From Nocardioides mangrovicus (lineage in GTDB: Bacteria; Actinomycetota; Actinomycetes; Propionibacteriales; Nocardioidaceae), in contig NZ_RDBE01000010.1 in assembly GCF_003674065.1 (NCBI RefSeq), forward strand, positions 400,809 to 464,808: a stretch of DNA of 64,000 nt. The letters are read 5' to 3'. Positions 7,975 to 19,828 of this stretch are shown here, in pieces. Positions within the stretch are counted from its first letter, which is position 1. Every line of letters starts with the position of its first letter. Made by a program: the position numbers and the translations under genes. A model generated the notes under the pieces. The model searched no databases. It was not told where the DNA came from and was given only the letters and a program-made list of their open reading frames with translations.

Positions 7975-8003
7975 TTGACACACCCGATGTGAGCGATAAC
8001 AAT
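7975..8003 (+). promoter_or_regulatory. Promoter of the pentose importer operon
   Basis: TTGACA (7975-7980) is a consensus -35 box. At 17 bp spacing lies AACAAT (7998-8003), a 4 of 6 match to -10. The LacI-type operator at 7988-8001 covers the spacer and most of the -10, so a bound repressor would block RNA polymerase. Confidence 0.55.
7988..8001 (+). promoter_or_regulatory. LacI-family operator, site 1 (lac-like)
   Basis: TGTGAGCGATAACA. It equals the core of the E. coli lac operator O1 with one central G missing, which restores the even 14-bp spacing typical of most LacI-family operators with a central CG. It sits within the promoter of the importer operon. Sites 2 and 3 (13464-13477 and 14467-14480) share the form TGTGAGCG[CA]TAAC[AC]. 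Confidence 0.7.
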
Positions 8004-8057
8004 CCGACTGCCGCGGGGATCCCTGCGGCGGCCGGCATCAGACGTGGGAGCGCGGAC

Positions 8058-9218
8058 ATGCACGAAGAACGAGGTATCGGCGGCTCAGGTCGCTCCGAGG
8101 TGAACGCTGACATCGCGGCCGAGGCACTCGACCGCCTGGAGTGGCGCGACGCCCGCCGCTCGACGCCCGAGCGCGCACCCCGCTTCGCCATGGCCCGACG
8201 CGCCGCTCTCACCGGTGGCGGCGCCGCGCTGGCCTCCGCCATGCTCGCCGCCTGCAGCTCCGGCTCCGATGCGAAGGCGTCCTCCGGATCCGCCGGGGAC
8301 ACCTTCGGGTCGTCGAAGAAGCTGAAGTTCGTCTTCGTCAACCACGTCACGACGAACACGTTCTTCGTGCCCACCCGCTACGGCGCCCAGGACGCCTGCG
8401 ACCTGTTCGGGGCGCAGTACCAGTGGACCGGCTCGGAGAATAGCAACGTCAACGAGATGGTCAATGCGATGAACACCGCCATCACCGGCGGTGCCGACGG
8501 CCTCGCGGTCGCGCTCGTCGACGACAAGGCCTTCAACTCCCCGACCGACGCCGCCATCAAGGCCGACATCCCGGTGGTCGGCTACAACGCCGACGCGAGC
8601 ACCAACTCCCGCCTCGCCTACATCGGGCAGGACCTCTTCGCCTCGGGCCAGGAGATGGGCAACCGCATCGTCGACCTCGTCGGCTCCGGCCCGGTCGCCC
8701 TGTTCATCGCCACCCCCGGCTCGACGAACCTGCAGCCCCGCATCGATGGCGCGCTCTCCGTACTCAAGGCCCATCCCTCCATCACCACCTCGACCGTGGC
8801 CACCGGCGCGGCCATCCCGGCCGAGCTGTCGACCATCGACTCCTACGTGACCGCCCACTCCGACGTGAAGGGTCTCTTCGCGGTCGACGCCGGCAGCACC
8901 CAGAGCATCGCCCAGACCATGCAGAAGCACTCGCTGCGCGGCAAGGGCGTCAAGGCCGGCGGCTACGACCTCACCCCGATCACCCAGAAGCTGCTGGCCT
9001 CCGACCAGCTGGACTTCACGATCGACCAGCAGCCGTACCTCCAGGGCTTCCTGCCCGTCCTGGAGCTCTACCTGTACACCGTGTCGAAGACGCTGAGCGG
9101 CATGGCCGACGTCAACACCGGCCTGAAGTTCCTCGACAAGACCACGGTGAAGCCGTACAACAGCACCAAGTCCCGCTACGAGGGATCGTCGAAGGCGGCG
9201 GGGGTCTCGAAGAGCTGA
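8058..9218 (+). CDS. CUT2 sugar ABC transporter, substrate-binding lipoprotein
   Basis: A 386-residue periplasmic-binding-protein-like lipoprotein that captures a sugar outside the membrane for the permease and ATPase that follow. It has a long cytoplasmic N-terminus (about 45 residues), then a twin-arginine-like segment (ARRAALTGGGAAL) and the lipobox LAAC, so it is probably exported and lipid-anchored. The mature part is a type I sugar-binding protein of the ribose/xylose class: NEMVNAMNTAITGGADGLAVALVD, SRLAYIGQDLFASGQEMG and a DFTIDQQPYLQGF hinge. ATG 8058 has GGGAG at 8046-8050. Clustering with ara and xyl genes makes arabinose or xylose the likely ligand. Confidence 0.85.
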   Translation: MHEERGIGGSGRSEVNADIAAEALDRLEWRDARRSTPERAPRFAMARRAALTGGGAALASAMLAACSSGSDAKASSGSAGDTFGSSKKLKFVFVNHVTTNTFFVPTRYGAQDACDLFGAQYQWTGSENSNVNEMVNAMNTAITGGADGLAVALVDDKAFNSPTDAAIKADIPVVGYNADASTNSRLAYIGQDLFASGQEMGNRIVDLVGSGPVALFIATPGSTNLQPRIDGALSVLKAHPSITTSTVATGAAIPAELSTIDSYVTAHSDVKGLFAVDAGSTQSIAQTMQKHSLRGKGVKAGGYDLTPITQKLLASDQLDFTIDQQPYLQGFLPVLELYLYTVSKTLSGMADVNTGLKFLDKTTVKPYNSTKSRYEGSSKAAGVSKS

Positions 9219-10339
9219 TGGCCACCTCACACGCGGAGTCGCCGACCTCGACGACACCGCCGCCGGCCTCGGGGCGGGGCCCCGGCCCGGGGGCGGGGAC
9301 GTCGACCATGAGACGGCTGCTCACCCTGCGCGAGGGCAGCATCGTCGTGGTGACGATCCTCGCGATCGCCTACTTCGCCGTGGCCAACGACCGGTTCCTG
9401 ACGAGCGCGAACTTCAAGACGCTGCTGCCCTACTTCGCCCCTTTCGCCATCCTGGCGGTGGGCGAGGTGATGCTCATGGTGGCCGGCGAGATCGACCTGT
9501 CCATCGGGTCGGTCTACCTCTTCGCCCCGTTCATGTTCTACGAGTTCCACCAGCTGGGGCTGCCGCTGGTGGTGGACCTGCTCCTGTGCCTCGTGTGCGC
9601 CGCGCTGATCGGGGCGCTGAACGGCGTCCTGACCGCGGTCGTGGGCATCTCCTCGTTCATCGTCACGCTGGGGACGCTGCTCGGCGTGGGCGGCCTGACG
9701 CTCATCATCTCGGGGGCCGCCCCCGTCGCCATGCCCGGCGCCGAGGTTCACACGACGACCGAGTCGGTGAAGAAGGTCGTCAACGGCCACACCATCACGC
9801 TGCAGGAGCAGGTCAACCACGTGGGCGGCTTCGCGAGGGTGTTCGGTGCCGGCATCTACTCCGAGCTGATCTGGGCGCTGCTCGCGGTGGCGCTGCTCCA
9901 CGTGGTCCTGCGATCCACGCGCTGGGGCATGTACACGGTCGCGGTGGGCGGCAACCGGCACGGCGCGGCGGAGGCCGGGATCAAGGTGCGCAGCATCGTC
10001 ATCCGCAACTTCGTGCTCTGCGCCCTGCTGGCCGGGTTCGTCGGCGTGCTGGAGGCGATGCGCGCCAGCTCGGTCACCCCCGACACCGCCGGGGCCTCGG
10101 AGACGATGTTCCGCGCGGTCTCGGCGGCGGTCATCGGGGGCACCCTGCTCGCCGGCGGCGAAGGCACGGTGGTGGGCGCGCTGCTCGGCGCGCTCTTCCT
10201 CGGCGTCCTGCGCGACGGACTCGTGCTCGACGGGGTCAGTGCCGACTACCTCGACTTCATCCTCGGCTTCGCGATCCTCATCGCGATGGCCGTCAACATC
10301 TACGTCGGCCGCGTGCGGAAGGGGTCCGGGCATGCCTGA
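9218..10339 (+). CDS. CUT2 sugar ABC transporter, permease
   Basis: A 373-residue integral membrane protein of the RbsC/XylH type that forms the channel of the importer. A Pro/Ser/Thr-rich cytoplasmic tail of about 30 residues comes first, then about 8-10 membrane helices. MVAGEIDLSIGSVYLFAP is the diagnostic EIDLSVG loop of the family, and AVGGNRHGAAEAGIKV is the cytoplasmic coupling loop. ATG 9218 overlaps the stop of the binding-protein gene by 1 nt, and the 3' end overlaps the ATPase gene by 8 nt, so all three are one operon. Confidence 0.88.
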   Translation: MATSHAESPTSTTPPPASGRGPGPGAGTSTMRRLLTLREGSIVVVTILAIAYFAVANDRFLTSANFKTLLPYFAPFAILAVGEVMLMVAGEIDLSIGSVYLFAPFMFYEFHQLGLPLVVDLLLCLVCAALIGALNGVLTAVVGISSFIVTLGTLLGVGGLTLIISGAAPVAMPGAEVHTTTESVKKVVNGHTITLQEQVNHVGGFARVFGAGIYSELIWALLAVALLHVVLRSTRWGMYTVAVGGNRHGAAEAGIKVRSIVIRNFVLCALLAGFVGVLEAMRASSVTPDTAGASETMFRAVSAAVIGGTLLAGGEGTVVGALLGALFLGVLRDGLVLDGVSADYLDFILGFAILIAMAVNIYVGRVRKGSGHA

Positions 10340-11114
10340 GACGGAGGGCGACGACGACGTCCTGCGGGTCGAGCACGTCTCCAAGCGGTTCGGGGCGGTC
10401 ACGGCGCTGCGCGACATCAACCTGCACCTGCGCCGCGGCGAGGTGCTCGGCCTGCTCGGCGACAACGGCGCCGGCAAGTCGACCCTGATGAAGATCATCG
10501 CCGGCTTCCAGAACCCCGACGAGGGCCGCATCGTCGTCAAGGGCGAGCAGGTGAGCTTCCGCGACGTCGACCACGCCCGCTCGCTGGGCATCGACTGCGT
10601 CTACCAGGACCTCGCCCTGGTCAACGAGCTGGACGTCGTGCAGAACATGTTCCTCAAGCGGGAGCTGGTCTCGCGGCCCATCCCGCTGCTTGCCCGCCGG
10701 GTGATGCGCGAGCGCACCCGCGAGGCCCTGGAGCGGATCGGGATCAACATCCCCCGCCTCGACGTACCGGTGGCGCGCCTGTCCGGTGGGCAGCGCCAGG
10801 CCATCGCGGTGGCCCGGACGGTGACCTCCGAGGCCGACGTCATCCTGCTCGACGAGCCGCTGGCGGCGATGGGCGCCAAGGAGGGGGCGATGATCCTCGA
10901 CCTCGTGCAGCAGCTGCGCGAGGCGGGCGAGGTCTCGATCATCATGATCGCCCACAACTACGTGCACGTGCTCCAGTCGTGCGACCGGGTCAACCTCATC
11001 CAGGGCGGCGAGATCACCTTCGACAAGCCGACGGCGGACACCTCGGTGGAGGAGCTGAACGAGATCGTGGTCGAGGAGTACCGCCGGGCCCGGCGGGCGG
11101 CGCAGGCGGGCTGA
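10332..11114 (+). CDS. CUT2 sugar ABC transporter, single-domain ATPase
   Basis: A 260-residue ATPase that powers the importer. Walker A is GDNGAGKST (about 43-51), the signature is LSGGQRQA and Walker B is VILLDEP, followed by the switch His in IAHNYVHV. Most CUT2 ATPases (RbsA, XylG) are fused double domains of about 500 residues; this one has only one domain, as in FrcA of the rhizobial fructose system, so it must dimerise. The LDEP motif is followed by LAAMGAKEG, close to the usual TAALGVKE. ATG 10332 lies inside the end of the permease gene. Confidence 0.88.
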   Translation: MPETEGDDDVLRVEHVSKRFGAVTALRDINLHLRRGEVLGLLGDNGAGKSTLMKIIAGFQNPDEGRIVVKGEQVSFRDVDHARSLGIDCVYQDLALVNELDVVQNMFLKRELVSRPIPLLARRVMRERTREALERIGINIPRLDVPVARLSGGQRQAIAVARTVTSEADVILLDEPLAAMGAKEGAMILDLVQQLREAGEVSIIMIAHNYVHVLQSCDRVNLIQGGEITFDKPTADTSVEELNEIVVEEYRRARRAAQAG

Positions 11115-11143
11115 GGCGACGACGCGTGCCCGATACTGGGGCC

Positions 11144-12193
11144 ATGGCCGCCTCCTCACCCGTCGGTGAGCCGCGGCCGACGGCTCCACCCCGGCCGCAG
11201 CGCGGCCCGGCCATGACCGACGTCGCCCGGCTGGCCGGCGTCTCGCACCAGACGGTCTCACGGGTGCTCAACGCCCACCCCAACGTCGCCGAGACCACCC
11301 GGCTGCGGGTCCAGGCGGCCATGAACGAGCTCGGTTACCGCCCCAACCGCGCGGCCCGGGCGCTGGTCACCGGCGCGTCGCAGACCATCGGCGTCGTCAC
11401 CCAGGCCACCCCGCTGTTCGGCCCGGTGCGGTTGCGCACGGCGCTGGAGCTGGCCGCCTCCGAGGCGGGGTTCGACGTCTCGACCGCCAGCATCCGTGGC
11501 GTCGACCGGTCCTCGGTCGAGGCCGCCGTGGAGCGTCACCTGGCCCAGCGGGTCGACGGCATCGTGGTCATCGTGCCGGTGGTCTCGGCGCAGGAGGCCC
11601 TGGACGGCGTCCGGGGCGACGTACCGGTGGTGGCGATCGACGGCGACCCGTCGCGGCCCTCCGGCCTGGTGACGGTCGACCAGGCGGAGGGCGCGCGGCT
11701 GGCCACCCAGCACCTGCTCGACGCCGGGCACCGGACCGTGTGGCACGTCTCGGGACCACCCGACTGGTTCGACAGCGCCGGTAGGGCGGCGGGCTGGCGC
11801 GAGACGCTGGACGCGGCGGGCCGTGAGGTGCCGCCGGTCATCGCCGCGGACTGGACGCCCGAGGCCGGCTACCGCGCCGGCCAGATGCTGGCGCGCATGC
11901 CGGAGGTGACGGCGGTGTTCGCCGCCAACGACCACCTCGCGCTCGGCATCACCAAGGCGCTGCGGGACCAGGGCCTCGACGTCCCCGACAGGATCAGTCT
12001 GGTGGGTTTCGACGACATCCCCGAGGCCGGCTTCCTCTCGCCACCGCTCACCACCGTGCGCCCCGACTTCGACGCCGTGGCGCACCAGGCGCTGCAGGCG
12101 ATCCTGGGCTGGCGTGACCACGGCGGCGCTCCGGCGGCGGAGGCGGTGCCGCCCACACTGGTCCAGCGCGACAGCGTCGCCGCGCCACGGTGA
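11144..12193 (+). CDS. LacI-family transcriptional repressor of the pentose locus
   Basis: A 349-residue DNA-binding regulator. A Pro-rich leader (1-23) precedes the HTH (TDVARLAGVSHQTVSRVLN, 25-43). In the recognition helix H35, Q36 and R40 align with Y17, Q18 and R22 of E. coli LacI, the residues that read the GTGAGC half-operator, which fits the lac-like sites in this locus. The hinge helix NRAARALVTG follows, then a sugar-binding type I periplasmic domain (FAANDHLALGITKAL, LVGFDDIPEAGF). ATG 11144 is 6 nt after a GATACT box, suggesting its own leaderless transcript; ATG 11213 is an alternative start just before the HTH. The inducer is probably arabinose or xylose. Confidence 0.85.
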   Translation: MAASSPVGEPRPTAPPRPQRGPAMTDVARLAGVSHQTVSRVLNAHPNVAETTRLRVQAAMNELGYRPNRAARALVTGASQTIGVVTQATPLFGPVRLRTALELAASEAGFDVSTASIRGVDRSSVEAAVERHLAQRVDGIVVIVPVVSAQEALDGVRGDVPVVAIDGDPSRPSGLVTVDQAEGARLATQHLLDAGHRTVWHVSGPPDWFDSAGRAAGWRETLDAAGREVPPVIAADWTPEAGYRAGQMLARMPEVTAVFAANDHLALGITKALRDQGLDVPDRISLVGFDDIPEAGFLSPPLTTVRPDFDAVAHQALQAILGWRDHGGAPAAEAVPPTLVQRDSVAAPR

Positions 12194-12200
12194 CGCGCGG

Positions 12201-12223
12201 CGCCCGCCTGCACGGCGCGGGCG
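12201..12223. terminator. Stem-loop between convergent regulator and xylA
   Basis: A 7-bp GC stem (12201-12207 with 12217-12223) in the 76-bp gap between the ends of the LacI-family gene and xylA. It is short and lacks a U tract, so this is a weak terminator candidate. Confidence 0.35.
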
Positions 12224-12269
12224 TTCACCGCTGCAGCCGCCCTCGCTGGGGACGAGGTGGTCGTCGAGG

Positions 12270-13445
12270 TCAGCCGACGAGGTGCTCGAGCGCCAGCTGC
12301 TGGAGCGCGACGAAGCCGTAGTCGCGCTCGGCCGCGACCTCGGGGTCGAAGGAGTCGTCGCCGGCCAGTAGGTCGGCGGCCGTCTCACCCTCGTCCAGGG
12401 TGGAGACGGCGAGGTCGGGCACGCCGGAGTACGCCATGGCCTCCTGCACCCGAGCGTCGGCGCGGAACGCGCGAGCGCGCTCGGCGAGCATGAGGTAGGT
12501 GCTCATGCAGGCTCGGGCCGACTCCCACACACCGTCCATGTGCTCGGTGCGCGAGGGCTTGTAGTCGAAGTGCCGCGGGCCGGCGTAGCGCGGGCCCTCG
12601 GGGTGGTTCGGGAACCCGTTCTCGAGCAGGTCGACGGTGAAGAACGCCGAGAGCAGGTCGCCGTGGCCGAAGACGAGGTCCTGGTCGTACTTCAGGCCCC
12701 GCTGGCCGTTGAGGTCCAGGTGGAACAGCTTGCCGCTCCACAGCGCCTGGCCCAGCGCGTGGTTGTAGTTGAGGTTGGCCATCTGCTCGTGACCGGTCTC
12801 CGGGTTCAGCCCGACGACGTCGCCGTGCTCGAGCTCGGCGATGAGGGCCAGCGCGTGGCCGACCGTGGGCAAGAAGATGTCCCCACGCGGCTCGTTGGGC
12901 TTCGGCTCCAGCCCGATCCGCAGGTCGTAGCCCTGGGTCTTGATGTAGCCGGCGACCGTGTCGAGCCCCTCCTTGTAGCGCTCGAAGGCGGAGTACACGT
13001 CCTTCGACGAGTCGTACTCGGCGCCCTCGCGGCCGCCCCACATCACGAACGTCGAGGCGCCCACCTGGGCGGCGAGGTCGACGGCGCGCAGCACCTTGCG
13101 CAGCCCGAACCGGCGCACGCCGCGGTCGTTGGAGGTCAGCCCGCCGTCCTTGAACGCCGGGTGGGTGAAGGTGTTGGTGGTGACCATCTCGACGACGAGC
13201 CCGGCGGCGTCGGTGGCGCGGCGCAGGCGCTCGACGCGCTCGGCCTTGGTGGCCTCGTCCGCGTCGAAGTCGAAGAGGTCGTTGTCGTGGAAGGTGATGC
13301 CCCACGCGCCGAGCCCCGCCAGCCGCTCGGCGTACTCCCACGGGTCGAGGGCGGGCCGGCTGGCGGTCCCGAAGGGGTCCACCCCCAGCCAGCCCACCGT
13401 CCACAGGCCGAAGGAGAACCGGTCGTCCGGCGTGGGTGTGCGCAC
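12270..13445 (-). CDS. xylA: Xylose isomerase
   Basis: A 391-residue cytoplasmic enzyme that interconverts D-xylose and D-xylulose using two divalent metal ions. It is the short, class I form found in actinobacteria: [11 protein letters not shown] near the N-terminus, catalytic His in FHDNDLFDF (H53, D56), metal ligands in [13 protein letters not shown], the [10 protein letters not shown] block and HLDLNGQ. GTG 13445 is preferred because GGAGG lies 4 nt upstream and the conserved N-terminus begins there. It is divergent from galM with a LacI-type operator between the starts. Product goes to XylB. Confidence 0.93.
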
Positions 13446-13463
13446 GCTTCCTCCACATCGTCG

Positions 13464-13478
13464 TGTGAGCGCTAACCT
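13464..13478 (+). promoter_or_regulatory. LacI-family operator, site 2, over the galM -10 box
   Basis: TGTGAGCGCTAACC (13464-13477) in the 39-bp gap between xylA and galM starts. TAACCT (13473-13478) is a -10 box exactly 6 nt before ATG 13485, so galM is probably leaderless, and the operator overlaps that box. The same site is 19 bp upstream of the xylA start and can serve both genes. Confidence 0.65.
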
Positions 13479-13484
13479 ACCGCG

Positions 13485-14456
13485 ATGAGCCTGCGGATCG
13501 GCAGCCGCGACGGGGTCGAGGTCGAGCTGCTGCCGCTCGGCGCAACGGTGCGGAGCGTATGGGTCACCGGATCCGACGGCGTGCGACGCGACGTCGTGCT
13601 GGGCTACGCCGACCCGGCGGACTACCGGGCCGGTCACGACTACCTCGGCGCCACCGTCGGTCGCTACGCCAACCGCATCGCCGCCGGCCGGCTGCTGGTC
13701 GACGGCGTCGAGCACCGGCTCGCCCGCAACGACCGGGGCCAGCACCTGCATGGCGGCCCCGGCGGCTTCCACTCCCGGATATGGGAGGTCGTCGCCCACG
13801 AGCGCCACCGCGTGCGGCTCGCGCTGGAGAGCCCGGCGGGGGAGGAAGGCTTCCCCGGCCGGCTGCGGGTGGAGCTCGACGTGTCGGTGGCCGGTGCGAG
13901 CGTCGCCCTCGAGTACCGCGCCGAGACCGACGCCGCCACCGTGGTCAACCTGACCAACCACAGCTACTTCAACCTCGACGGCGACCTGCCGGGACGCGAC
14001 GTGCGGGACCATGTGCTGAGCGTCCCGGCGTCGCGCTACACGCCCGTGGACGACGTCGGCATCCCCACCGGCCCCGGCCGCGACCCCGACGTCGAGGTGG
14101 CCGGGACGCCCTTCGACCTGCGCGCGGGGATCCGCCTGGACGGCGTCGCGGACATCGACCACGACCTGCTGCCCGACGGTGCAGGCCTGCGCGAGGTGGC
14201 ACGGCTGATCTCCTCGGCCGGCGGTCTCGCGCTCAGCGTCCGCAGCGACCAGCCCGGCCTGCAGGTCTACGCAGGATCCAAGCTCGACGGGAGCACCACG
14301 TCGCGCGCCGGGCACCCCATCACGGCCTATGCCGGTGTCGCGCTCGAGCCCCAGCTGCCGCCGGACAGCCCCAGCCGGCCCGGTAGCGGCGGCGCCGTGC
14401 TGCGGCCGGGCGAGCGCTACCGGCACCGCATGGCCTGGCGCTTCGGCCCTGCTTGA
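13485..14456 (+). CDS. galM: Aldose 1-epimerase (mutarotase)
   Basis: A 323-residue enzyme that interconverts alpha and beta anomers of aldoses, supplying the anomer needed by the isomerases beside it. Family motifs are [25 protein letters not shown] with the catalytic His, [10 protein letters not shown] with the second conserved His, and [11 protein letters not shown] with the catalytic Glu near the C-terminus. Length is normal. It probably has its own promoter (TAACCT at 13473-13478) and no leader. The gene ends 80 bp before araB. Sugar specificity is not evident, but the locus suggests pentoses. Confidence 0.9.
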
Positions 14457-14466
14457 CGCTAACGGG

Positions 14467-14480
14467 TGTTAGCGCTCACA
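14467..14480 (-). promoter_or_regulatory. LacI-family operator, site 3, upstream of araBDA-xylB
   Basis: TGTTAGCGCTCACA on the plus strand; read on the minus strand it is TGTGAGCGCTAACA, one base different from sites 1 and 2. It lies 57 bp before the araB start. A TTGACG hexamer at 14453-14458 is a possible -35 box, but no convincing -10 is seen at 17 bp. Confidence 0.65.
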
Positions 14481-14536: not shown

Positions 14537-16186
14537 ATGGGCGATGAGTACGTCGTCGGGGTCGACTTCGGCACACTCTCCGGGCGCGCCGTCGTCGTCC
14601 GCGTGAGCGACGGCGAGCAGGTGGCCGACGCCGTGGTCGACTACCCGCACGGGGTGTTGGAGGAGTCGCTCCCGGACGGCACCCGGCTCGGCGCCGACTG
14701 GGCGCTGCAGGTGCCGGACGACTACCGCGAGGTCCTGCGCGTGGCCGTCCCCCGGGCGCTGCAGGAGTCCGGCGTCGACCCGGCCCAGGTCGTCGGCATC
14801 GCCACCGACTTCACCGCCTGCACCATGGTGCCGACCCTGGCCGACGGCACCCCGCTCGACGAGCTGGCCGAGCTGGCCGGTCGCCCGCACGCCTACACCA
14901 AGCTGTGGAAGCACCACGCCGCGCAGCCGCAGGCCGACCGCGTCAACCGGCTGGCCGAGGAGCGGGGCGAGGCTTGGCTGCCGCGGTACGGCGGGCTGAT
15001 CAGCTCCGAGTGGGAGCTGGCCAAGGGGCTCCAGCTCTTCGAGGAGGACCGCGACGCCTACGACCGGATGGAGCGCTTCGTCGAGGCGGCCGACTGGATC
15101 GTGTGGCAGCTGTGCGGCACCTACGTCCGCAACGCCTGCTCAGCGGGCTACAAGGGCGTCCTCCAGGAAGGCCGCTACCCCTCTGCGGCCTTCCTGGAGG
15201 GCCTGGCGGAGGGGTTCGGCGGCTTCGTCGCGGACAAGCTCCATCAGCCGATCGGCCGGCTGGGAGCGCGTGCCGGCGGGCTGGGTGCACGGGCGGCGTG
15301 CTGGACCGGTCTCCCGGAGGGCATCGCCGTGGCCGTGGGCAACGTCGACGCCCACGTGACCGCGCCCGCCGTCCGAGCCGTCGAGCCGGGGCAGATGGTC
15401 GCCATCATGGGCACCTCCACCTGCCACGTCATGAGCGCCGATGTGCTGCGCGAGGTGCCCGGCATGTGCGGCGTGGTCGACGGGGGCATCGTCGAGGGCC
15501 TCTTCGGCTACGAGGCCGGGCAGAGCGGCGTCGGCGACATCTTCGCCTGGTTCGTCGAGCACGGCGTGCCCGAGGCCTACGCGGTGGCCGCACGCGAGGC
15601 CGGCGAGAGCCTCCACGAGCACCTGACCCGGCTGGGCGAGAAGCAGGCGGTGGGCGAGCACGGGCTGGTGGCGCTCGACTGGCACTCGGGCAACCGGTCG
15701 GTGCTGGTCGACCACCAGCTCTCCGGCCTCGTCCTCGGCCTCACCCTCGCCACCCGGCCCGAGGACGTCTACCGCGCGCTGCACGAGGCCACCGCCTTCG
15801 GCACCCGGGTGATCGTCGAGACGTTCGCGGCCGCGGGCGTGCCGGTCGATGAGCTGGTGATGGCGGGCGGGCTGACCCGGAACCGGGTGCTCATGCAGCT
15901 CTACTGCGACGTGCTGGGCCTGCCGCTCTCGGTCGCCGCGTCGGCCCAGGCCCCCGCCCTGGGCTCCGCGATCCACGCGGCGGTGGCGGCGGGTCGCTAC
16001 GCCGACGTGCCCGCGGCGGCGGCCGCGATGGGACGCGTCGAGCGGCACGCCTACCTGCCCGACGCGACCAGGTCGGCCGGCTACGACGACCTCTTCGCCC
16101 TCTACCGCGAGCTGCACGACCACTTCGGCCGTGCCACGCCGCTGATGCGCCGGCTCCGGACCCTCCGCTATCAGGCCCGCCGATGA
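14537..16186 (+). CDS. araB: Ribulokinase
   Basis: A 549-residue FGGY-family sugar kinase that phosphorylates L-ribulose with ATP in the arabinose pathway. The N-terminal VGVDFGTLSGRAVVV is the ATP phosphate-binding region with the ribulokinase-specific GTLSGR. GIATDFTACTMVP, GTSTCHVM and the C-terminal VMAGGLTRNRVLMQL adenosine motif follow. ATG 14537 has GAGGAGG 6 nt upstream. It leads the araB-araD-araA-xylB operon: the 3' end overlaps araD by 4 nt (ATGA). Confidence 0.93.
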   Translation: MGDEYVVGVDFGTLSGRAVVVRVSDGEQVADAVVDYPHGVLEESLPDGTRLGADWALQVPDDYREVLRVAVPRALQESGVDPAQVVGIATDFTACTMVPTLADGTPLDELAELAGRPHAYTKLWKHHAAQPQADRVNRLAEERGEAWLPRYGGLISSEWELAKGLQLFEEDRDAYDRMERFVEAADWIVWQLCGTYVRNACSAGYKGVLQEGRYPSAAFLEGLAEGFGGFVADKLHQPIGRLGARAGGLGARAACWTGLPEGIAVAVGNVDAHVTAPAVRAVEPGQMVAIMGTSTCHVMSADVLREVPGMCGVVDGGIVEGLFGYEAGQSGVGDIFAWFVEHGVPEAYAVAAREAGESLHEHLTRLGEKQAVGEHGLVALDWHSGNRSVLVDHQLSGLVLGLTLATRPEDVYRALHEATAFGTRVIVETFAAAGVPVDELVMAGGLTRNRVLMQLYCDVLGLPLSVAASAQAPALGSAIHAAVAAGRYADVPAAAAAMGRVERHAYLPDATRSAGYDDLFALYRELHDHFGRATPLMRRLRTLRYQARR

Positions 16187-16872
16187 CGCTGACCCAGGAC
16201 GTCGCCCGTACGGTGGCCGGACTGCGAGACGACGTCTGCGCGCTGCACGCGGAGCTGCCCCGCTACGGCCTCGTGGCCTGGACCGCCGGCAACGTCTCGG
16301 CCCGGGTGCCGGGTGCCGAGCTGCTCGTCATCAAGCCGTCCGGCGTGCGCTACGAGGACCTCACCCCGCAGAGCATGGTGGTCTGCGACCTCGACGGCAC
16401 CGTGGTCGAGGGCGACCACGCGCCGTCGTCCGACACCGCGGCCCAGGCCTACGTCTACCGCCACCGCGCGGACGTCGGCGGGGTCGTGCACACCCACTCG
16501 CCCTACGCCACGGCCTGGGCGGCGCGGGCGGAGCCGGTGCCGTGCGTCCTGACGATGTGCGCCGACGAGTTCGGCGGCGACATCCCGGTGGGCCCCTTCG
16601 CGATGATCGGTGACGACTCGATCGGCCGCGGCATCGTCGAGACGCTGGCCGGGAGCAGGTCGCCGGCGGTGCTCATGCAGAACCACGGCGTCTTCGCCGT
16701 CGGCCCCACGGCCCGCGACGCCGTCAAGGCCGCCGTCATGTGCGAGGACGTCGCCCGGACCACGCACCTCGCCCGGCAGCTCGGGGCGCCGGTGCCCGTC
16801 TCGGAGGCCGACACCGATCGGCTCTTCGAGCGCTACCAGCACGTCTACGGACAGCAGGAGGAGCGATCGTGA
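16183..16872 (+). CDS. araD: L-ribulose-5-phosphate 4-epimerase
   Basis: A 229-residue zinc-dependent class II aldolase-fold enzyme. It converts L-ribulose 5-phosphate to D-xylulose 5-phosphate, the exit point into the pentose phosphate pathway. Motifs are [25 protein letters not shown], the zinc ligands VHTHSPYAT, and [10 protein letters not shown] with the third His. ATG 16183 overlaps araB by 4 nt, and the 3' end overlaps araA by 4 nt (GTGA), so translation of the three is coupled. Confidence 0.93.
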
Positions 16873-18374
16873 ACGCAGACGACGCCGCCGAGGTGTGGTT
16901 CCTGACCGGCAGCCAGGCCCTCTACGGGCCCGAGATCCTCGAGCAGGTGGCCACCCAGTCGCGCGACATCGCCGGCCGGTTGGCGGACCGGCTCGACGTA
17001 CCCGTGCGCGTGGTGTGGAAGCCGGTGCTGCTGGAGTCGGACTCGATCCGACGCCAGGTGCTCGCCGCCGACGCCGCGCCGCAGTGCGTCGGCGTCATCA
17101 CCTGGATGCACACCTTCTCCCCGGCCCGCATGTGGATCGCCGGACTCAGCGTGCTCACCAAGCCGCTTCTGCACCTGCACACGCAGGCCGGGATGGAGCT
17201 CCCGTGGAGCACCATCGACATGGACTTCATGAACCTCAACCAGGCCGCGCACGGCGACCGGGAGTTCGGCTACGTCCAGACCCGCCTCGGGGTCGCCCGC
17301 AAGACCGTCGCCGGCCACGTCGAGTCGCCCTCGGTCGTGCGCCGGGTGGGCGAGTGGGCCCGTGCGGCGCTCGGCGCGGCCGAGCTGCGCACGCTGCGCC
17401 TGGCCCGTTTCGGCGACACCATGCGCGACGTCGCGGTCACCGAGGGCGACAAGGTGCAGGCTCAGGCCACCTTCGGGGTCTCGGTCAACGCCTACGCCGT
17501 CACCGACCTCGTCGCGGAGGTCGATGCCGCCGACCCGGCCGACGTCGACTCCCTCGTCGAGGAGTACGCGGACCGCTACGACGTCGCCGCCGAGCTGCTG
17601 CCGGGCGGGGGGCGCCACGAGTCCCTGCGCTACGGCGCGCGCATCGAGGTGGGGCTGCGCACCTTCCTCACCCGTGGCGGGTTCGGCGCCTTCACCACCA
17701 ACTTCGAGGACCTCGGCGGCCTGCGCCAGCTGCCCGGGCTGGCCGTGCAGCGGCTCATGGCCGACGGCTACGGCTTCGGCGGCGAGGGCGACTGGAAGAC
17801 CTCGATGCTGCTGCGCACCATGAAGACGATGGCGCAGGGCCTCGCGGGCGGCACCAGCTTCATGGAGGACTACACCTACCACCTGGTCCCGGGTGAGGAG
17901 GTCGTCCTCGGCGCGCACATGCTCGAGGTCTGCCCGAGCGTCACCACCTCGACGCCTACTGTGGAGGTGCACCCGCTCTCCATCGGCGGCCGCGAGGACC
18001 CGGTGCGGATGCGCTTCGTCGCGGACCCGGGACCGGGTCTGGTGGCGGGCATGTCCGACGTCGGCGGCCGGTTCCGGATCACGCTGAACGACATCGACGT
18101 CGTCGAACCGGCTCGGGACCTGCCGCGACTCCCCGTCGCCTGCGCGGTGTGGCGTCCGCGGCCCTCGCTGGAGACGTCGGCCGAGGCCTGGCTCATGGCC
18201 GGGGCGCCGCACCACACCGTGCTCTCGAAGGCGCTCCCCCGCGCAGCGATGGAGGACCTCGCCAGCATCGTCGGCGTCGAGCTGGTGGCGATCGACGCCG
18301 AGACCACCATCGCCTCGGTCACCCGCGAGCTGCGCTGGAACGCCGCCTACCATCGCCTCGCGGCGCGGCTCTGA
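16869..18374 (+). CDS. araA: L-arabinose isomerase
   Basis: A 501-residue manganese-dependent enzyme that converts L-arabinose to L-ribulose, the first step of catabolism. Diagnostic blocks are [16 protein letters not shown] at the N-terminus, [15 protein letters not shown], the metal-binding Glu in [10 protein letters not shown] and the His in the region of HMLEVCPSV near the C-terminus. GTG 16869 has a strong GGAGGAG site and overlaps araD by 4 nt. Length is as expected for AraA (about 500). xylB follows after 23 nt. Confidence 0.95.
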
Positions 18375-18397: not shown

Positions 18398-19828
18398 GTG
18401 GCCGAGCACCGCCGGAGACGACGCCTGGTGACCGGGGTGGACACCTCCACCCAGTCCTGCAAGGTGCTCACGGTCGACGCCGAGACCGGCGACGTCGTCC
18501 GCTCCGGCGCGGCGCCGCACCCCGAGGGGACCTCGGTGGACCCGCGTCGCTGGTGGGACGCGCTGCTGGCGGCGTCCGGCGGCGCGCCCGTCCCCGACGA
18601 CGTCGACGCGGTCGGGGTCGGCGGCCAGCAGCACGGGATGGTCGCGCTCGACGAGGCCGGCGAGCCCGTGCACGACGCGCTGCTGTGGAACGACACCCGC
18701 TCCGCCGACCAGGCCGCCCGGCTGCGGCAGCACTGGGGCGGTCGGTGGTGGGCCGAGGAGATCGGCGTCGTGCCCGTGGCCTCGTTCACCGCCACCAAGC
18801 TGGCCTGGCTGGCCGACCACCACCCCGAGCTGGCCGACCGCGTCGAGGCGGTGATGCTGCCCCACGACTACCTGACCTGGCGGCTGCTCGACACCCCCGC
18901 GGAGGCCGTCACCGACGCCAGCGACGCCTCCGGCACCGGCTACTGGTCGGTGCCGGACCGGGCCTACCGTCCCGAGGTCCTGGCCTACGCCTTCGGCCGC
19001 GCACCGCGGCTCCCGCGCGTGCTCGAGCCGCGGGAGGCCGCCGGGGAGACCGCGGGCGGGGTGGTCGTCTCGGCCGGGTGCGGTGACAACGCCGGTGCCG
19101 CCTTGGGCCTCGGCCTGCGCGAGGGCGAGGTCGCGGTCAGCATCGGCACCAGCGGCACCGTCTTCACCTCCACCCGGACGGACGTCGCCGACCCGTCGGG
19201 CGGCATCGCGGGCTTCGCCGACGCTCGCGGCGGCCGGCTGCCGCTCATCGCGGTCATGAACTGCACCCAGGTGCTCGCCGACACCGCCCGGCTCCTCGAG
19301 GTCGACCTGGCCGGTCTGGGGCGGTTGGCCGAGTCCGCCGCCCCCGACGCCGACGGCCTGCTGCTGGTGCCCTTCCTCGGCGGCGAGCGGACGCCGGACC
19401 TGCCGCACGCCAGCGGCACCCTGCTCGGCATCACGCGCTCGAGCTACACCGCGGCCAACCTCGCCCGCGCCGCCTACCTGGCCGTCGCGCTGAGCCTCGA
19501 CCACGCCCTCTCGCTGCTACGCGGTCACGACGTGCCCGTCGAGCGGGTGGTCACCCTCGGCGGTGGCGCCCGGTCCGCGACCCTGCTGCGCACCGCGGCC
19601 GCCCTCTGGCACGCCGACGTCGAGGTGCCCGAGCCCGCCGAGTACGTCGCCCTGGGCGCCGCTCGGCAGGCCGCCTGGGCCCTGGACGGGGCGGCAGAGC
19701 CTCCGACCTGGCCCCGCGTCGTCCGCGACCGCGTCGAGGGCACCGATCCCGGTTGGGCGGCCGACGTCCGGGGCCGCTACGCCGAGGCGCTGCAACGGGT
19801 GTACGGCGTCGCCGGCGCCACGTTCTAG
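18398..19828 (+). CDS. xylB: Xylulokinase
   Basis: A 476-residue FGGY-family kinase that phosphorylates D-xylulose, the XylA product. GVDTSTQSCKVLTVD is the N-terminal phosphate-binding motif, GVGGQQHGMVALD the substrate-binding block, LWNDTRS the next conserved one, SIGTSGTVF the second phosphate loop and VTLGGGARSATLLRT the adenosine motif. GTG 18398 has AGGAGGA about 6 nt upstream. It closes the ara operon although its partner xylA is transcribed elsewhere in the locus, so xylose use needs both promoters. tRNA-Glu begins 18 bp after the stop. Confidence 0.92.
   Translation: MAEHRRRRRLVTGVDTSTQSCKVLTVDAETGDVVRSGAAPHPEGTSVDPRRWWDALLAASGGAPVPDDVDAVGVGGQQHGMVALDEAGEPVHDALLWNDTRSADQAARLRQHWGGRWWAEEIGVVPVASFTATKLAWLADHHPELADRVEAVMLPHDYLTWRLLDTPAEAVTDASDASGTGYWSVPDRAYRPEVLAYAFGRAPRLPRVLEPREAAGETAGGVVVSAGCGDNAGAALGLGLREGEVAVSIGTSGTVFTSTRTDVADPSGGIAGFADARGGRLPLIAVMNCTQVLADTARLLEVDLAGLGRLAESAAPDADGLLLVPFLGGERTPDLPHASGTLLGITRSSYTAANLARAAYLAVALSLDHALSLLRGHDVPVERVVTLGGGARSATLLRTAAALWHADVEVPEPAEYVALGAARQAAWALDGAAEPPTWPRVVRDRVEGTDPGWAADVRGRYAEALQRVYGVAGATF

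Follow-up and report, generated by a model that had tools for sequence, protein, structure and literature searches.

A small pentose regulon of Nocardioides mangrovicus with lac-like operators, probably governed by an AraQ/AraR-type LacI-family repressor

A pentose locus of Nocardioides mangrovicus, lying within a stretch of 64,000 nucleotides (contig NZ_RDBE01000010.1, positions 400,809 to 464,808; hereafter the window), is compared here with related regulatory systems as these are portrayed in the parts of the published accounts on which we draw. The LacI-type regulator AraQ has the consensus TGTGAGCGCTCACA, araBDA and galM as predicted targets in Bifidobacterium and D-xylulose-5-phosphate as a suggested effector, and in other Actinomycetales its homologues stand next to ara operons that carry putative sites (PMC4746261); araFGH importers and a highly conserved helix-turn-helix (HTH) are described for the AraQ group, which has been proposed to activate or repress according to the position of the site, with some central-metabolism genes activated (PMC5928203). 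In B. breve, electrophoretic mobility shift assays showed AraQ binding to 23 of 33 regions from other AraQ promoters; the eno segment contains the operator CATTGTGAGC-GCTCACATCA, and a second LacI-type protein, MalR1, shares operators with it (PMC6882875); in B. longum, arabinose strongly induces a galM promoter for which AraQ control is predicted (PMC9213400). Furthermore, the LacI-type AraR of C. glutamicum is listed with L-arabinose as its ligand (PMC13056197, PMC5956887), XylR represses the xyl operons of Streptomyces (PMC6149001), and across the LacI family even palindromes are recorded for 1251 of 1303 regulators, with a central CG in 1173 (PMC4052901).

When set beside these systems, the window very probably holds a local pentose regulon under an AraQ/AraR-type LacI-family repressor that would be released by a pentose or a pentose-derived effector and would act at the promoters of a sugar importer, of xylA/galM and of araBDA-xylB. 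Computation establishes the operators, the identities of the genes and the presence of a site at ara promoters beside regulators of this type. The three sites placed by a first-pass annotation were recovered by motif scan, and likewise by a score matrix described below: operator 1, TGTGAGCGATAACA (7988..8001, plus strand), stands ahead of the importer operon, where comparison with the orthologous cluster of genome G006 also reveals it; operator 2, TGTGAGCGCTAACC (13464..13477, plus strand), lies within the 39-bp gap between the divergent xylA and galM; and operator 3, TGTGAGCGCTAACA, or TGTTAGCGCTCACA on the other strand (14467..14480, minus strand), lies ahead of araB. The importer operon has a promoter-like element (TTGACA, a 17-nt spacer and AACAAT, with 10 of 12 matches; 7975..8003, plus strand) in which the predicted -10 hexamer overlaps operator 1; operator 2 is separated by 18 bp from the GTG of xylA (13445, minus strand) and by 7 bp from the ATG of galM (13485), and the ATG of araB (14537) begins 56 bp past the end of operator 3. 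All three have a central CG and, with 10, 10 and 12 self-complementary positions of 14, the build of LacI/GalR operators; they also conform to the AraQ/AraR type, from whose consensus TGTGAGCGCTCACA operator 3 departs by 1 mismatch and operators 1 and 2 by 2 each. Beside operator 3, and overlapping it, there is a second inverted repeat, CGCTAAC-GGGT-GTTAGCG, at window positions 14457-14474.

A genome scan, which the first-pass annotation had proposed as a check, found exact TGTGAGCGMTAACM at three places only in the whole 4.1 Mb, all of them the window operators (the count was taken from a looser-pattern scan with 1 mismatch, and a separate scan with a 13-base core agrees). Within the 64 kb, allowing at most 2 mismatches yields 4 matches, namely the three sites and the opposite-strand reading of the third; shuffled windows gave a mean of 0.58 and a maximum of 3, and none of 100 shuffles gave 4. 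The AraQ consensus itself, at 2 mismatches, is matched at 8 places in the genome, all three operators included, as against 5 in the reversed control, so that this loose scan separates signal from background poorly. Among further candidates, C20:14695 (at most 1 mismatch from TGTKAGCGCTMACA) sits on a coding stop/start overlap and was rejected as a regulon member, as were the remaining extra places of the looser scan, which are at least 2 letters off TGTKAGCGCTMACA.

The locus encodes one LacI-family regulator (11144..12190, plus strand), which two domains scoring above cut-off, the LacI HTH PF00356 (72.2 bits) and the sugar-binding-like PF13377 (115.3 bits), place in LacI/GalR. Among solved structures, it matches best to an ancestral LacI construct and to lac repressors, the latter being the best full-length matches, and its top NCBIfam model, NF007075/PRK09526, which we take to be the lacI model, scores 265.7 bits, below the cut-off of 340; by that label the protein falls outside E. 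coli LacI. The recognition helix of E. coli LacI is VSYQTVSRVVN and that of the regulator VSHQTVSRVLN, as the first-pass annotation had noticed in pointing to H-Q...R; 29 of 54 residues of the DNA-binding domain agree between the two, H stands for Y17, and Q18 and R22 are kept. The genome search yielded seven HTHs of the LacI family, and the combination H17-Q18...R22 occurs in only one, that of the locus regulator, which on these grounds of sequence is likely the reader of the three operators.

Homologues in other genomes point in the same direction, for a TGTKAGCG-type site is present, once or more, in 32 of the 34 loci whose regulator has H17-Q18, and among L049-L066 the gene of each of the 13 homologues that carry S, A or M at position 17 is preceded by a palindrome of the TGTTTRCGYAAACA type. 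Since the two groups carry different palindromes, the letters of helix and site co-vary, and the S/A/M17 and H17 groups represent a putative natural specificity switch. One or two TGTTTRCGYAAACA-type palindromes, often 34 bp apart, were observed upstream of the own gene in L049-L053, L055, L056, L060, L062-L066 and L076; for L059 and L061, which come from Amnibacterium metagenome-assembled genomes and have the helix VSYQTVSRVLN, a lac-like palindrome was not found in the 350 bp upstream of the gene.

The association of the site with ara genes was assessed in 22 foreign ara loci, each named and each with an H17-Q18 regulator 61-69% identical to that of the window; loci in which araB was matched at less than 50% identity or not at all, L032 (whose ara genes are cut by the contig end) and L017 (whose araB is at the locus edge) were excluded, and distances in L019 were taken from the start of araA, the first gene there. 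In all 22, the 300 bp ahead of the ara genes contain a site with at most 2 mismatches from TGTKAGCGCTMACA, as against 6 of 4400 shuffles. A score matrix built from the sites at these promoters ranks the window operators first to third in the 64 kb, with scores of 25.3, 24.9 and 18.0 (next match, 10.2), operator 2 at xylA/galM being clearly the weakest; because the pattern by which the sites were picked was symmetrised from the window operators together with the AraQ consensus, this test is not fully independent. On a wider scale, the palindrome with at most 2 mismatches occurs 135 times in 67 homologue loci (reversed control, 0), and the core TGTGAGCGMTAAC is present at 25 places in 13 of 58 genomes, the own one included (reversed control, 1 place).

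The xylose genes show a different distribution. In the orthologous cluster of the close relative G006, whose regulator is 80% identical and whose order is regulator-araB-araD-araA-importer, one site precedes araB and another the importer, the latter within a 17-nt block, TGTGAGCGATAACAATC, identical to that of the importer promoter in the window; matches to xylA, galM and xylB were not found in the 19 kb read around this cluster, and the xylA-xylB pair of G006 is located elsewhere, without a site. None of the 29 non-own xylA loci examined (±1.5 kb each) carries the operator, these 29 and the own locus being the 30 examined of 40 listed xylA places, the other 10 falling outside the sample; the 67 homologue loci, several of them truncated at contig ends, likewise gave no xylA match at E 1e-15. 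Of 17 araB places in relatives, the own included, 7 have a site in their ±1.5 kb locus, and the linkage to araBDA that characterizes AraQ/AraR-type systems is found in the window and recurs in G006 as well as in 23 of the 34 loci with H17 homologues. The arabinose arm is thus of wide occurrence, and the xylose arm seems to have been added locally, its genes having probably been recruited to the regulon; held with moderate confidence, it is the one variant feature and depends on the weakest operator. Elsewhere, in genome G037, a LacI-family homologue with 37% identity (L169 2830-3810) is divergent from an adjoining xylA in a locus with no TGTKAGCG-type site.

Several observations nonetheless weigh against viewing the locus as a pentose regulon of the AraQ/AraR type. 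The label itself derives from linkage and operator, AraQ and AraR having been compared by description, and the B. breve study found no effector for AraQ (PMC6882875). The 22 foreign loci include many related strains of Streptomyces, Actinophytocola and Saccharothrix and do not amount to 22 independent events. Among the 34 H17 loci, L016 and L048 lack a site in the DNA examined, and araB is present in only 23, so that homologues may serve other pathways. Ten of the 17 araB places lack a site within ±1.5 kb: in three none was seen, and in seven, from other genomes of the same genus or family, the sites head a transporter-lacI-araBDA cluster, where the assignment of the regulator is ambiguous owing to a second LacI-family gene near most of these sites. 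Moreover, L057 (T17), L058 (K17) and L059 and L061 (Y17-Q18 as in LacI) show neither palindrome before their own gene, the Y17 homologues thereby weighing against a simple helix-site rule. As for xylose, 2 of 100 shuffled windows match or beat the score of operator 2 (best shuffled, 18.37), and the predicted-AraQ galM promoter of B. longum showed no significant rise with that sugar in the source cited (PMC9213400), which speaks against transferring a two-sugar response from AraQ. L147, L148, L149, L152, L153 and L155, which belong to other genomes of the same genus or family, contain two LacI-family genes (HQ or LQ helices) around galM, importer and araBDA, with one or two cluster-head sites.

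The low score of operator 2 and the B. longum result, along with the 29 xylA loci devoid of the site and the lack of xylose genes in the G006 region read, would suit a regulator that governs the arabinose genes and the importer only, operator 2 then being a fortuitous or weak match and xylA/galM answering to some other control. We consider this unlikely, given that operator 2 lies between two start codons only 39 bp apart, is just 1 base off TGTKAGCGCTMACA and belongs to the three exact TGTGAGCGMTAACM matches of the genome, that AraQ is predicted to control galM in Bifidobacterium (PMC4746261), and that xylB, 53 bp behind araA, likely shares operator 3. The proposal of the first-pass annotation that one regulator serves two sugars is therefore plausible on account of operator 2 and of xylB behind araA, and is weakened by operator 2 being the weakest of the three and by the close relative G006 not showing such an arrangement. 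The genome also has six further LacI-family and five ROK-domain matches, any of which might read the operators alone or additionally, much as AraQ and MalR1 share operators in B. breve (PMC6882875); this is very improbable, however, for the six other LacI-family helices all lack H-Q...R and the site travels with the locus regulator type across genera. It is also very improbable that the regulator is partly an activator, as AraQ has been proposed to be, depending on site position, at certain genes of central metabolism, since the overlap of operator 1 with the predicted -10 hexamer is a position for which the same authors propose repression (PMC5928203); for operators 2 (18 and 7 bp) and 3 (56 bp), the distances are those to start codons and not to promoters.

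Pentose-released repression therefore remains the preferred explanation. A dimer of the regulator would bind the 14-bp pseudo-palindromes with their central CG, sit on or close to the promoters that serve the importer operon, the divergent xylA/galM and araBDA-xylB, and block transcription until released by a pentose or a pentose-derived effector, the likeliest being L-arabinose, as for C. glutamicum AraR, or an intermediate shared further downstream, for example D-xylulose 5-phosphate, as suggested for AraQ. By belonging to the importer operon, the regulator gene would come under its own control. Whether an AraQ/AraR-type repressor took in the xylose genes in this lineage, with xylA-galM adjoining and xylB following araA, and thereby joined arabinose, xylose and one common importer in a single switch, possibly answering to a shared intermediate, for example D-xylulose 5-phosphate, we judge to be an evenly balanced question.

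As far as the sources drawn on describe them, AraQ resembles this system in its predicted araBDA and galM targets, its linked sugar ATP-binding cassette (ABC) importer (in other actinobacterial families) and its even palindrome of the TGTGAGCGCTCACA type, whereas the window regulon has three strong sites genome-wide, includes xylA and xylB and, among its strong sites, has no glycolytic targets. AraR of C. glutamicum ATCC 31831, compared on targets and ligand, is similarly a LacI-type repressor of araA, araB, araD and a transporter, but that transporter is AraE and not an ABC importer, and the descriptions used here do not name xylose genes among its targets. Streptomyces XylR is an actinobacterial repressor of xylA/xylB too, although there xylR adjoins xylAB and in the window xylA adjoins a LacI-family gene instead. 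With E. coli LacI the regulator has in common S16, Q18, T19, V20, S21, R22, N25 and the hinge residue L56, as well as a nearly identical half-site, yet it differs in having H17 in place of Y17, pentose targets and operators without the odd central base.

The first-pass annotation had also found the likeness to the lac operator notable, and here it over-read the sequence: even CG-centred palindromes are the family norm (PMC4052901) and the published AraQ consensus is no different (PMC4746261), and a special kinship to the lac operon is consequently rejected. Operators such as these resemble the lac operator because this is the usual DNA code of the LacI family, and an operator 1 that reads as lac O1 minus a base is to be expected from that norm. 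What stands is its outline, in which a single LacI-family regulator has a reading head like that of LacI and the importer, xylA/galM and araBDA-xylB each have a lac-like site; this the present comparison supports as far as sequence goes.

The remaining genes were assigned chiefly by domain and family models. The importer operon, on the plus strand, encodes a substrate-binding protein (Peripla_BP_4; 8058..9218), a permease (9218..10339) whose best models, multiple-monosaccharide, ribose and arabinose, all fall under cut-off, and an ATPase of 260 amino acids with a single ABC domain (10332..11114), the best-matching monosaccharide ATPase models having about 490-513 positions; the regulator gene, 29 bp past the ATPase gene, is probably the final gene of this operon. 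xylA, encoding xylose isomerase (12270..13445, minus strand; TIGR02631, 591 bits, cut-off 447), is the sole xylA match in the genome. On the plus strand follow galM, aldose 1-epimerase (13485..14456), araB, ribulokinase (14537..16186; TIGR01234, start codon checked), araD, L-ribulose-5-phosphate 4-epimerase (16183..16872; NF005123), araA, L-arabinose isomerase (16869..18374; NF002795), and xylB, xylulokinase, with a probable GTG start (18428..19828; TIGR01312).

Taken as a whole, the regulon is genuine, small and of a known kind, and mostly ordinary. The comparison removes a false surprise, given that lac-like operators outside lactose systems are normal for the LacI family, and it brings forward a natural H17 variant that apparently reads a lac-type half-site. 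With three strong operators and one regulator, the locus offers a small system for asking how an existing repressor captures the genes of a second sugar.

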